Part shown: positions 1-5,700 of the stretch, one piece after another
How the letters are laid out: the number at the start of each line of letters is the position of its first letter
Position numbering within the stretch: the stretch's first letter is position 1
Origin: Holophagaceae bacterium
GTDB lineage: Bacteria > Acidobacteriota > Holophagae > Holophagales > Holophagaceae
Assembly: GCA_025353305.1 (NCBI GenBank)
Contig: JANXQX010000291.1
Location: 1 to 6,630, forward strand
Reading direction: 5' to 3'
Length of the DNA stretch: 6,630 bases
The notes under the pieces: model-generated
What the model was told of the DNA's origin: nothing
The model's database searches: none
The model's input: only the letters and a program-made list of their open reading frames with translations
Position numbers and translations under genes: made by a program

Positions 1-1478
1 AACCCGCATCTTTCGCGGACCGTGAGGCCGGCCCGTTCGCATAGGAGCGTGAAGAGCCGAACGCGATGGGCACAATTTCCCGCGCGGGCTTCCAGGGCGA
101 AAAGACCCACGCTGAGGCTCTCCCGGAAGGCGATATGGTCCAGGATCCAGGCATAGACCCTTCCGGCCCTCTGCCGGGGGTCTCGAGTCGAAGCGCCACC
201 GCGAAAAATAGTAGCGATGATCGCGTCAAGCATTGCCCCGTGGCGAGCGCTGACCCTGGTGCACTGGGCGGGCGGCGCTGGTCCCGCAGGCCCACCCATG
301 CCTTCACGAACGCGACACCGGAATGAATACCCCATGCGAAGGGTCCCGCCACTAGATGCGGTGAGTGGGATATGGACGGAAGTGCGGGCTTCATCCATGA
401 AACGCTCGAATTCAGGGGGCTCGAAATCGAAGAGGTGGAGGTCCCGCTGCTCATCACATGCCACCGGGAGGGGAAGCGAAAGTATTGGATTCATGAGGCC
501 CCTGGCCACATCGGCGCCCACCTCGACTTCGTAACGACCCTCCAAGTCAATGGCCAGAGGCGGAGCCGAGGGCCCTTCCGCAAGTCTGGGTGGCGGAATG
601 CGGAGCACCAGATTCCGTGCGGTCATCGCCTCGAAATAGCCGGTGTTGGCGATCAGCCAATTGGCGGCATGGCTGCGCTCGAACCGGCGATCTCCTTTTG
701 GGCCGGAAACAAACAGACCGGCGTCCTCGGCGCCTTCCAATGCCCGGGTGATGACTTGGTGCGGCTGAAACGCGGGATCGGCCCGCTCGGCGAAGTAGTG
801 TCCAAGTTCCTCGGCGGAATGACGGCACTGGGCAGGGACTGGGCGGCCAAAAATCCGAGCAAACCTGGCAGGAAGATCTTCGTTCGAGTTGGGTAAGGGT
901 GTCTCAAGCCGGTCACAGGCCCAGTCCAGGACCCAAAAATACGGATGCCGGTAGAACAGGGCGAGCACGGTTTCAAAGTCCATAACGCCGGGGCTTACCG
1001 CCATTGACCTTGGCCATCCTGCGGGGTTCAAAGTCCGCGCCCCAGCTTCATGCAGGCGGAGTCCCAGCTCAAAATCTTCCACGCCGCCGGGAAGGTCGGA
1101 GAAGCCGTTCAGTTCTGCCAGGAACGTCCGGCGGATGGCGAAGGGCGGGCCCAGATCAGGCGCTCCAGATGGGACCAGGGCTGAGCCCGAGTAGATTAGG
1201 TCGAGTTCCGATGCCCCCGCGAAGGGTTCAAGCGGTGGGACCTTCGACCCCTCAGCCATGAACAGCACCCATTGCCCAAGCGCGCAGCGCCATACCTGGT
1301 TCTTTTCTTCTGCCAAGGAAGTGGCACTCGAAGAATTCCATGAGCAACGGAGCAACTCCCATGGCCAGTTGAACTCCGAAAGCCTGAATTCAGCCGAACC
1401 AAGTTCCGATGCGTCCCCATCCCCAGGGGGTAGAAGGATCACTGTGAGGCCCTTGCCGCGCTCCATCGGGTGGCTCAT
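1..1478 (-). CDS. GT2-like / transglutaminase-like fusion protein, partial at 3' end
   Basis: The frame starts at ATG 1478, sharing ATGA with the glycosyltransferase stop, and runs without a stop to the left edge: 492 residues seen, C-terminus missing. Upstream of the ATG there is only a weak ribosome site, so coupling probably drives translation; Met5 (1466) is an alternative start. Residues 11-165 resemble a shortened family-2 glycosyltransferase: LTVILLPP, GQWVLFMAEGSKVPP (68-82) where the DxD metal site would be, and FLAELNGFSD with GVEDFELGLRLHEAG (119-147), the conserved late GT2 motif. Here AEG replaces DxD, so catalysis is doubtful. Residues 166-300 are unrecognised. Residues 310-405 resemble the beta-sandwich preceding bacterial transglutaminase cores (RYEVEVG, LSLPLPVACDEQ). 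From about 433, RAGRVYAWILDHIAF and ARAGNCAHRVRLFTLLCERAGL match the transglutaminase core, with Cys469 as predicted nucleophile. The catalytic His and Asp would follow outside the window. A role on the NRPS product is inferred from position only. Confidence 0.85.
   Translation of the reverse strand, partial: MSHPMERGKGLTVILLPPGDGDASELGSAEFRLSEFNWPWELLRCSWNSSSATSLAEEKNQVWRCALGQWVLFMAEGSKVPPLEPFAGASELDLIYSGSALVPSGAPDLGPPFAIRRTFLAELNGFSDLPGGVEDFELGLRLHEAGARTLNPAGWPRSMAVSPGVMDFETVLALFYRHPYFWVLDWACDRLETPLPNSNEDLPARFARIFGRPVPAQCRHSAEELGHYFAERADPAFQPHQVITRALEGAEDAGLFVSGPKGDRRFERSHAANWLIANTGYFEAMTARNLVLRIPPPRLAEGPSAPPLAIDLEGRYEVEVGADVARGLMNPILSLPLPVACDEQRDLHLFDFEPPEFERFMDEARTSVHIPLTASSGGTLRMGYSFRCRVREGMGGPAGPAPPAQCTRVSARHGAMLDAIIATIFRGGASTRDPRQRAGRVYAWILDHIAFRESLSVGLFALEARAGNCAHRVRLFTLLCERAGLTVRERCG
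1475..1478 (-). promoter_or_regulatory. ATGA stop/start overlap coupling glycosyltransferase and fusion gene
   Basis: The glycosyltransferase stop TGA (1477-1475) and the next start ATG (1478-1476) share two bases. This four-base overlap is typical of translational coupling in operons. It fixes the start of the fusion gene, which otherwise has little ribosome-binding signal. Confidence 0.7.
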
Positions 1479-2674
1479 GGCCGCTGGACCGCGTGCTGGG
1501 TAGATGATCGCCCCGCCAGGGATTCGATCAGGTCGGCAGCCACGCCCAGCCCATTTTCTGCCTTGATGGCCTGGGCAACTTCGAGACAATTGGCCCGGAT
1601 CTGCGGAGATTCCCGAGCCGTCCGGATGGCTGCGGCCAGGCCCTCCGGTGTGAGTTCCCTTACTGGAATGCTCGCGCTTGCGAGGTGGCGCTCCCGGGCC
1701 AGGGCGCCCCATAGGAATTGATCGAGCCAATGGGGCACGAACACCATGGGCACACCCGCACGCATGGCGGCGGCGGTGGTTCCCGCCCCGCCGGCATGCA
1801 CCACGCAACTGGCCCGGGGGAATAGCCAAGCGTGAGGCACAAAGGCTGTGAACATCACGTTCGGCGGAGGGTTGCGGCTGTCCAGTCCGCTCCAACCGGC
1901 CTGGATCACTGCCCGCCCGCCTGCCTGCTCTACCGCCCGGATCAGCGTCCGGGAGATTGCCTCCGGGTCCCTGTGGGCGAGGCTGCCGAAGCCGAGGACC
2001 ACGGGCCCCTCACCCGCATTCATGAAAGCTTCAAGGCCCGGATCGGGGGTGGAAGGCTCATCCAGAAACCAGAAGCCGGTGACGTGGTTCTGGTGTGCCC
2101 ATGAAGCTGGGCGCGGGAAAAGGTGAGGGCTCACGGGCGTGAGCGCGAGCAAAGGGGAGATGCCATCCACGCCCAAGGGTTCGGCGAGGGGCCCTAGGCC
2201 GAAGGTGGCCCGCAGCGCATTGAACCCCGGCGCCGCGGCCGCGGACAATTTCGGTCGGCGGCTGCTGCCGAAGGGCGAAAAATGAACCGACACGAAGGGC
2301 AGGCCCAGCAATTCCGCCGTCACCTGCCCAGCGGTTTGATAGGGAATCGAGATCAAGGCATCGGCGTCCCGGGCTTCATCGAGCAGCGCATGGACCGAGA
2401 CTTCTGCGTCCCGCATCTGCACCATCATCGTGGCTTGAATCTGTTCGGTCAGTCCCTCCATTTCATAGGCCGATGAAAAAATTTTCCGGGTCTCCGCATC
2501 GTCCATCGCCTGGCCCAGGCTGCAGAATTCAAGCCCATGCAGCGCCGCCTGAGCAGCAAAATTCGGGGGTGCCGCAAGAACCGCCTGGTGTCCTCGCCGC
2601 CGCAACTCCACCCCAAGCGCCAGAAACGGTTGAACATCGCCGGTAGTGCCCAAGGTCGCCATGACAAGTTTCAT
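1475..2674 (-). CDS. family-1 (GT-B fold) glycosyltransferase, natural-product type
   Basis: This complete 399-residue cytoplasmic enzyme is predicted to move a sugar from a nucleotide-sugar donor to a small-molecule acceptor. The N-terminal acceptor half starts with strand KLVMATLG followed by GTTGDVQP (9-16); Asp13 sits where the glycopeptide and macrolide enzymes have a conserved, possibly catalytic, Asp. GHQAVLAAPPNF follows, as in this family. The C-terminal donor half has VVLGFGSL (225-232), FVPHAWLFP (278-286) and HAGGAGTTAAAMRAGVP (293-309), the diphosphate-binding signature, then HWLDQF (315-320) near the sugar site. Length fits the antibiotic and sterol glycosyltransferases, usually about 380-420 residues. 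There is no signal peptide or membrane segment. The gene lies 40 bases after the NRPS and shares ATGA with the next gene, so it is probably a tailoring enzyme for the NRPS product. Donor and acceptor cannot be read from the sequence. No sugar-biosynthesis genes are in view, so a common UDP-sugar is possible. Confidence 0.93.
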   Translation of the reverse strand: MKLVMATLGTTGDVQPFLALGVELRRRGHQAVLAAPPNFAAQAALHGLEFCSLGQAMDDAETRKIFSSAYEMEGLTEQIQATMMVQMRDAEVSVHALLDEARDADALISIPYQTAGQVTAELLGLPFVSVHFSPFGSSRRPKLSAAAAPGFNALRATFGLGPLAEPLGVDGISPLLALTPVSPHLFPRPASWAHQNHVTGFWFLDEPSTPDPGLEAFMNAGEGPVVLGFGSLAHRDPEAISRTLIRAVEQAGGRAVIQAGWSGLDSRNPPPNVMFTAFVPHAWLFPRASCVVHAGGAGTTAAAMRAGVPMVFVPHWLDQFLWGALARERHLASASIPVRELTPEGLAAAIRTARESPQIRANCLEVAQAIKAENGLGVAADLIESLAGRSSTQHAVQRP

Positions 2675-2718
2675 GCCCAGCCTGCTTGGTGTCTGATATG
2701 GATGTGATTAATGATCAT
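2671..2718 (-). CDS. possible 15-residue coupling microgene between NRPS and glycosyltransferase
   Basis: A 15-codon frame, MIINHIHIRHQAGWA, fills the spacer between the NRPS and the glycosyltransferase. Its ATG overlaps the NRPS stop as ATGA, and its TGA overlaps the glycosyltransferase ATG as ATGA. A purine-rich GAAGGA at 2725-2730 lies six bases before its ATG, inside the last NRPS codons, and is a good ribosome-binding match. If translated, it would let ribosomes pass from the NRPS to the glycosyltransferase by stop-start coupling. The peptide is Ile- and His-rich and I recognise no family. The spacer is short, so chance is a real alternative. The arrangement is seen directly; translation is inferred. 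Confidence 0.3.
   Translation of the reverse strand: MIINHIHIRHQAGWA
2681..2686 (-). promoter_or_regulatory. ribosome-binding site of the glycosyltransferase gene
   Basis: AGCAGG, one mismatch from AGGAGG, lies six bases upstream of the ATG at 2674. It supports that start, which also places the family's N-terminal Rossmann strand (KLVMATLG) right at the N-terminus. Confidence 0.5.
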
Positions 2719-5700
2719 TGAATTTCCTTCGAGTCGGAGGGCGAAGCCAGCTTCGCGTGGGCTTGGTTCAGGCATCTCTGCAACTGATCCCCCAAATCCG
2801 AGGCGTACGTGGCGATGCTGGATAGATGTCCGCCCCCAGCGGATATGAAGACCCTGTCAACGCCACCGAGACTGGCCCATGGTTCAACTGTCGAAGCGGG
2901 CTGGCCGCTGTTTCCCTCCGAATGGAAGATGGTCAAGGATCCCGGGTACGGGCGCGCGCGGTAGGTGGATATCGCCATGAAGAGGAGACTCAATGCAGTC
3001 TGCCGTCGCTGTTCATAGGGCAGGGCGCCCAGGTCGATTCGGTTCATTAGCGGAATGGGAACAGCAGGAGGCTCCTCCAGGTTCGGATCGGGAGGATCCA
3101 CCATCGCCAACAGATCCACCCGTTCTCCCACCACCCTCAGTTGCTGGGCCATTTCAAAAGCCTCCAGGGCGCCATTGCAATGGCCCCCCAACAGATAGGG
3201 GCCTCGTGGCTGTAGGCCTCGGATCAGCTTGAGGTGCTCCGCTGCCATCGTCTCGATGCGAGTAGGCGATGGCTGTCCGCTCAATCCGTAGGGATGGATG
3301 ACGTGGAACGGTTGATCAGCGTCAAGGCGCCCAGCCAGATTGCGGCAATACAAACCACCGCCGGTGAAGTCCCCGTGCAGAAAGAAGAACGGGCGCTTAC
3401 CCCTTCCGCCCCGGATCTCCACGAGGGGGGATTCCGGGAGCATGGAAGGGCCCTCCACCAGCAAACGGCTCAGTGATTGGATGGTGGTGTGGGAATAGAA
3501 ACTTGCGACGGGCAGTTTAAGCCCGAACACCTTCTCCAGGCGCGCCAGCATCGCGAGCGCGAGGAGGGAGTGTCCGCCCAGATCGAAAAAATCGTCCTGG
3601 ATGGCAATCGGCCGGATGTTGAGGAGCTCTTCCCAGATTTGAGCCATGAGGGACTGGGTGGGATCTTCAGGACCTTGGCGATGCCGGGGGCTGGGGACTG
3701 TAAAAGGGACGCTGCGCAACGCTTGTCGGTCGGGCTTCCCGTTTTTCATCGGCAGCGACTGGACCCTCCCGAAGGCTGCCGGCACCATGTAGGGCGGAAG
3801 TTTTTTCCTCAGGAAATCCACAAGACCCTCAATACTGAAGGGCTGCCCGGCTTCTTCTGAAGTTTCGAGATAGGCCACGATCCGTTTTTCTCCAGAGGGG
3901 TCTTCGCGTGCGTCCAGCACGGAACGGCGCACTCTGGGATACTGCGCCATAGCCGCCTCGATTTCCCCGAATTCGATGCGAAAGCCCCTGATCTTGACCT
4001 GATCATCCTTCCGCCCAATGAATTCGATGTTGCCGTCGGGCAGGTAGCGGGCGATATCGCCCGTCTTGTACAGGCGCCCGCCCGGAACCGCACCGAAGGG
4101 GTCCGGAATGAATTTTTCGGCCGTCAACTCTGGGTGATTCAAGTACCCCCGGCCCAGACCGATGCCGCCAACATGGAGTTCACCCGACACGCCGATGGGG
4201 ACGGGCCGGCCCCGGGGGTCGAGCAGGTAGACGCTGGTGTTGCCGATGGGGCGCCCGATGGGCACGGAACGCTGACCGGCGTCCAGGATCGCCGGGATCC
4301 GATAGCAGCACGAGAAAGTCGTGCATTCTGTGGGTCCGTAGCCATTGATGATCTGGGTGGCCGGCAGTTCCGCCAGGGCGCGGCGGATATGGCGGACCGA
4401 CAAGGCTTCACCGCCAACCAGCAGTTGGCCGACATTGACCAATATTTCCGGGCAGTGGTCGACGATGGAATTGAACAAACTCGAGGTCAGCCAAAGCGTG
4501 TTGATCTGATTGTGCTTCAGCACGCTTTGCAGGGTGGTGAACGACAGTTCCCGTTCGGGATAGAGCACGCACTGCCCGCCATGGAGCAGGGGCGCCCAGA
4601 TTTCAAAGGTGGAGGCATCGAAGGAGACGGGGGATGCCTGCAGTATTCGGGTAGTGGCATCGAGATGTGCGTAGCCTCCTCCCAGGATCAAGCGGACGAT
4701 GCCTCGATGCAAAATCTCAACGCCCTTGGGCCGGCCGGCCGAACCGGAGGTGTACATCGCATAGGCGACATCATCCAACCCAGCACGGATCGGGGGATTT
4801 GAAGTGCTTGCCCCAACCCCCGGCAGGCTGTCCAGGTCCAGACAGAACAACTTCGCATCGCACTCGGGGATGAAATCGATCAGAGGCTCCTGGGTCAGGA
4901 GGTATGCCAGGCCCGTGTCTCTGATGACAAAGGACAATTGTTCGTGGGGATGGGTGGTATTGAGCGGCACATAGGCCGCGCCGCACTTGAGGATCCCCAG
5001 GATCCCCACCACCAGTTCAAGGGACCTTTCCATGAGTATCCCAACCGGCATTCCCGGCCCCACACCACGGCCGATCAGAACATGGGCGACCTGGTTGGCC
5101 CTTTCATTCAGGGCCCGATAGGAGAGGCTCCGGTTCCCGAAGACCAGGGCTATCGATTCTGGGGAACGCTCGGCCTGTTCCTGGAACAGTTGCTGGACGC
5201 ATTTATCAGGTATCTCGATCTTTGTGTCATTCCATTCCACCAGGACCTGATGCTGTTCCACCTCGGTCATCAACGGCAGGTTCAGAATGCGCTGATCAGG
5301 GTCCGAAACAAACGCCTCAAGCACACGTTGGAAATGCGCCAGCATCCGCTGAATCGTGGCAGCCTCGAACAAGTCCGTGCTGTATTCCAGCTCTGCGTGG
5401 AGGCCGCCCTCCGACTCCCACATGGAGAGTCCCAGGTCGAATACCGAGTAACGCCGCTCTAGGCTTTCCGCGCTTTCGCGCAATCCCAGGAAGAATGTTC
5501 CGGGTTGGGGATCCTGCTGGAAAACGAATGCCACCTGAAACAACGGAGAGAAGCTCCGGCTCCGCGCAGGATTGAGCGCTTCAACCAGTTTATCGAAGGG
5601 CAGATCCTGATGTTCATAGGCGCCCAGCGCCACCGCGCGGACCCTGGCCAGCGCTTCCCGAAGCGTGGGGTTGCCTGACAGGTCGGTGCGAAGGGCCAGC

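Follow-up and report, generated by a model that had tools for sequence, protein, structure and literature searches.

A degenerate GT2-like domain and a transglutaminase-like domain are joined in a single protein chain encoded beside an NRPS gene in a Holophagaceae bacterium. This is what the initial annotation had claimed, and it is borne out by an open reading frame, by relatives and by fold matches. The architecture, a pseudo-GT2 fused to a transglutaminase-like domain beside an NRPS, looks rare. We give a probability of roughly 40% to the reading that the protein is an NRPS-associated tailoring enzyme, in which a dead GT2-like domain accompanies a transglutaminase-like cysteine acyltransferase. 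A conserved fusion that pairs an intact-triad transglutaminase core with a dead glycosyltransferase next to NRPS genes would be an architecture new among such amide-forming catalysts, and it would exemplify the reuse of a glycosyltransferase fold in a non-catalytic role.

Architecture of the fusion gene

The window, that is the whole stretch of DNA analysed here, comprises 6,630 nt (positions 1 to 6,630 of contig JANXQX010000291.1, assembly GCA_025353305.1, Holophagaceae bacterium). Its features are as follows.

3..1478, minus strand: fusion gene, first 492 codons; continues past the window edge (longer relatives have 617-658 aa)
984..1454, minus strand: degenerate GT2-like (GT-A fold) domain, approximately aa 9-165
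1248..1259, minus strand: M-A-E-G at the place of the GT2 DxD, placed by motif order, not by superposition
1053..1085, minus strand: GVEDFELGLRL, late GT2 motif, aa 132–142
561..983, minus strand: middle region, mostly helical, approximately aa 166-306, with a SHAANW motif
294..560, minus strand: beta-sandwich preceding the transglutaminase core, approximately aa 307-395 (from secondary structure; the match to 3isr starts at model residue 310)
3..293, minus strand: transglutaminase core, truncated at the window edge (PF01841 at aa 431-488)
72..74, minus strand: codon for Cys469, the predicted nucleophile (equivalent to Cys476 of the relative P0002)
1475..2674, minus strand: GT1 glycosyltransferase (MGT/EryCIII-like), 82% identical to the copy in the related locus L001
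2715..6629, minus strand: NRPS C-A-T-TE, extending past the window at its 5' end; 71% identity to its L001 counterpart

The fusion gene is read from the minus strand; it opens with an ATG at 1478 and stays stop-free for 492 codons, up to base 3, where the window ends. Both motifs quoted in the initial annotation were located in it, the late GT2 motif at the position listed and the nucleophile segment, with Cys469, at aa 467–480. Protein searches, each of which scored only the roughly 8,000 candidates with the most words in common and may miss more distant members, returned eight longer relatives of 617–658 aa (P0002–P0009). P0002–P0008 are 46–67% identical to the window fragment. Because these eight further proteins align across both parts of the fusion, we ruled out a frameshift or assembly artefact joining two separate genes. 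They also supply the completed gene, in place of the window itself.

To judge from the alignment, the GT2-like half appears to have lost the residues needed for catalysis. A DxD motif is absent from all nine sequences (the window and the eight longer relatives). The Asp of the late ED pair is kept in five of the nine, the window included, while the remaining four have Ala, Ala, Asn and Gly there; the late acid, the catalytic base of GT2 enzymes, is not a family-wide feature. By eye, the aligned N-termini contain no Asp-rich nucleotide segment after the second strand. The predicted model nevertheless matches GT2 enzymes in fold. The fusion differs from GT2 (GT-A) enzymes such as WrtF, BcsA, RmlT and TarP in these two motifs, the missing DxD and the partly kept late Asp.

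In contrast, the transglutaminase-like half seems to keep its catalytic residues. The initial annotation had staked its proposal on a His and an Asp following the Cys in the completed gene, and the longer relatives contain them: the triad Cys476, His531 and Asp547 (P0002 numbering) is aligned in eight of eight, while the window fragment stops short of the His and Asp. RAGNC is present in all nine sequences. Four relatives exceed the curated cut-off of 23 bits for PF01841 (P0002, 40.7 bits; P0007, 42.8; P0008, 52.9; P0009, 54), and a match was obtained for all eight A1 members at E up to 10; the window fragment alone scores 19.5 bits, below the cut-off. A structural match had been sought for both parts, and the predicted model has both a transglutaminase fold and a GT-A fold. 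Its best structural match is 3isr, titled “Transglutaminase-like enzymes, putative cysteine protease”. Similarity by Foldseek is partial, with a target TM of 0.45 for 3isr and 0.42 for WrtF, and residues 458-474, which lead up to the Cys, have pLDDT <50.

Between the window fragment and its L001 counterpart, dN is 0.22 and dS 1.01. The dN/dS ratios per block are 0.24 for the GT2-like part, 0.16 for the middle region (aa 166-290, the lowest of the four), 0.19 for the sandwich and 0.24 for the core, all rough values from a single pair with dS near 1. Constraint on the GT2-like half is similar to that on the core, and so this half is probably doing something.

Distribution and related proteins

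A scan of genome contigs gave 51 stretches matching the pattern, one of which encoded a relative; this is L001, from a Holophagaceae MAG. A search of the phylum, with at most three first-look candidates scored per genome, gave 57 matches in 52 of 396 genomes. Only one genome, G001, contained the whole fusion; among the other 56 matches, 24 covered the transglutaminase part only and 32 the GT2 part only, and none had both together. The family search (E no higher than 1e-20, up to 16 candidates scored per genome) again found the whole fusion only in G001, one of 77 genomes. Viral contigs yielded 22 stretches matching the pattern, none of which encoded a relative of the fusion, and plasmids gave no fusion match. 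A wide distribution was thus not found in the phylum, family, viral-contig or plasmid searches. NCBIfam returned no family for the window protein P0001 (E up to 1) or for P0002 (E up to 0.01). A glycosyltransferase-transglutaminase fusion appears in no title among the literature matches listed, which cover few subscription journals. A PDB search with the A1 sequence profile gave three ribosomal-protein matches (E 0.53-0.62), which we took as chance.

The C-terminal half of the fusion resembles, by eye, stand-alone proteins such as those of L034, L035, L039 and L041, all from the same phylum, and 3isr, to which the L039 protein is related by sequence (E 0.0041). They share a sandwich-like N-terminal segment, a Cys-His-Asp core and an FGxxDxxR tail; unlike the fusion, these proteins have no GT2-like half. 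Some stand-alone relatives of the transglutaminase half, such as those of L037, L038 and L039, begin by eye with a hydrophobic leader and appear to be exported, whereas the N-terminus of the fusion is not strongly hydrophobic: over its first 19-residue segments the best mean does not exceed 1.38 (P0002). The highest such mean anywhere, 1.63 (P0007, from residue 58), borders on the usual membrane-segment level.

A more distant protein, P0010, came from the protein search (E 3.8e-6, 27% identity) and is a partial record from a Gemmatimonadota MAG. It aligns to the fusion with an hhalign probability of 99 over 372 columns and shares with it the sandwich, the core, the tail and the C-terminal stretch of the middle region, NW motif included. 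Its Cys and His are kept, but Glu replaces the triad Asp, and the sequenced part, from a record that is partial at the N-terminus, contains no GT2-like half. That partial N-terminus resembles a GT1 tail by eye, and its first 78 residues give a weak Pfam match to a GT1 C-terminal domain (EryCIII-like_C, E 0.041). The other three of the four tests of this tail gave no support: NCBIfam returned no family, BLASTP against the window GT1 reached only E 0.40, and hhalign with the GT1 protein pair matched elsewhere with a probability of 0.3. P0010 may therefore carry the transglutaminase module behind a GT1 tail, which, if true, would link a GT1 with this module in another phylum. Against the PDB, P0010 matched a Protein-glutamine gamma-glutamyltransferase (E 0.018). 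Two gasdermin matches over residues 118-171 (E 0.083 and 0.1) were taken as chance.

Gene neighbourhood

In the window, the GT1 gene lies upstream of the fusion gene and its stop end overlaps it by 4 bases; beyond it lies the NRPS, with condensation, adenylation, carrier and thioesterase domains. The gene order in L001 is a divergent transglutaminase-like gene, the NRPS C-A-T-TE, GT1, the fusion, an A-T didomain, a PPTase and, on the opposite strand, an FGGY kinase. The order NRPS-GT1-fusion is thus common to both loci, with an identical 4-base overlap of GT1 and fusion, and the fusion proteins are 67% identical. The A-T didomain and the PPTase are known from L001 alone, as the window ends earlier. 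The initial annotation had proposed to check whether homologues with both domains recur beside NRPS genes, and the sole relative with readable surroundings, L001, shows such a recurrence: the fusion adjoins the NRPS in two of two readable loci (the window and L001, which is one of eight relatives).

The divergent gene of L001 (1627-2664, minus strand) is a second transglutaminase-core gene (PF01841, E 8.3e-15), head to head with the NRPS. By eye, its product has a hydrophobic, lipoprotein-like leader.

Proposed function and alternatives

Transglutaminase-fold catalysis on an assembly line has a precedent. AdmF is reportedly the transglutaminase homologue of the andrimid pathway described by Fortin, Walsh and Magarvey in 2007. 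It is reported to form an amide bond on carrier-bound chains in andrimid assembly. To our knowledge, a transglutaminase homologue that forms an antibiotic assembly-line amide is rare, and AdmF is the one citable precedent. AdmF and the fusion are both transglutaminase-like and encoded with NRPS genes, the latter in the window and in L001; unlike the fusion, AdmF belongs to a hybrid PKS/NRPS line and is not known to be fused to a GT2-like domain. The AdmF work is an entry (Fortin et al. 2007) in the reference list of PMC5216899.

An AdmF-like cycle fits the triad and the gene setting, in which the L001 fusion gene sits between the GT1 and the A-T didomain, its next gene. The fusion protein would be cytosolic. 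Its Cys would attack a carrier-protein thioester and take over the acyl or peptidyl chain, and the acyl-enzyme would then be resolved by an amine, as is reported for AdmF. The pseudo-GT2 might position the acceptor, or serve as a docking site for a carrier partner or for the GT1. The pathway has no need of a further amide-forming catalyst, however, since its NRPS includes a condensation domain whose HHxxxDG motif is intact. At five genes, from NRPS to PPTase, the L001 set is small enough to be expressed in a foreign host, which would give access to its product and to the part played by the fusion.

The transglutaminase-like domain could instead be a hydrolase or amidase (protease-, deacylase- or N-glycanase-like) that clears or matures a peptide assembled by the NRPS and glycosylated by the GT1. 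Proteins of the transglutaminase fold include proteases and peptide:N-glycanase, the title of 3isr names a putative cysteine protease, and the GT1 gene overlaps the fusion gene; the adjoining carrier-protein genes, however, fit acyl transfer as well or better, and we regard hydrolysis as possible but rather unlikely. If neither domain were catalytic, the protein might be a structural or regulatory scaffold for the NRPS and GT1. The degenerate GT2 half would suit such a role, which retention of Cys, His and Asp in all eight longer relatives, of which seven share 45-62% identity with P0002, makes distinctly improbable.

Just as improbable, in our estimate, is a pathway unrelated to the NRPS, with a lineage-specific two-domain protein merely lying beside it. 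Surroundings could be read for only one of the eight relatives, which leaves room for this explanation, but the three-gene order is the same in the window and L001 despite 67-82% protein identity, and the GT1 overlap is of the same 4 bases. It is very doubtful that the GT2 domain still transfers sugars, using an unusual site that works without metal: the GT-A fold retained in the model and the late Asp in five of nine sequences speak for it, and the complete loss of DxD, the four substitutions at the late position and the missing nucleotide segment speak against it.

Within the acyltransferase reading, a more specific version is a long shot. The dead GT2 may read a sugar installed by the GT1, and the transglutaminase Cys may move a carrier-bound acyl or peptidyl chain onto the glycosylated acceptor, for example an aminosugar. 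If true, a pseudo-glycosyltransferase would couple glycosylation to amide formation, in a new kind of NRPS chain-transfer enzyme.

Further features of the NRPS genes

Amino-acid-activating A domains carry a key pocket Asp. The A-T didomain of L001 (9932-11860, plus strand) has Ser at this conserved position (FSASLRQL, by eye), which suggests a substrate other than an alpha-amino acid. The A domain of the NRPS resembles what we take to be a valine code, its pocket residues having been aligned by eye. The NRPS thioesterase (window 2715-3362, minus strand) has the nucleophile motif GGHCNGA, with Cys for Ser, and so does that of L001; Cys thioesterases are known from beta-lactone and beta-lactam forming lines.

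G001 has two condensation domains. Its second C-A-T-TE NRPS (L044, 1684-7859) lies on a 7.9-kb contig. Upstream of it are a gene of the NAD-synthase family (PF02540, E 2.6e-32) and a partial gene for AMP-binding and carrier domains; neither GT1 nor fusion is present on this contig, which ends there. The thioesterase of the L044 NRPS also has GGHCNGA.
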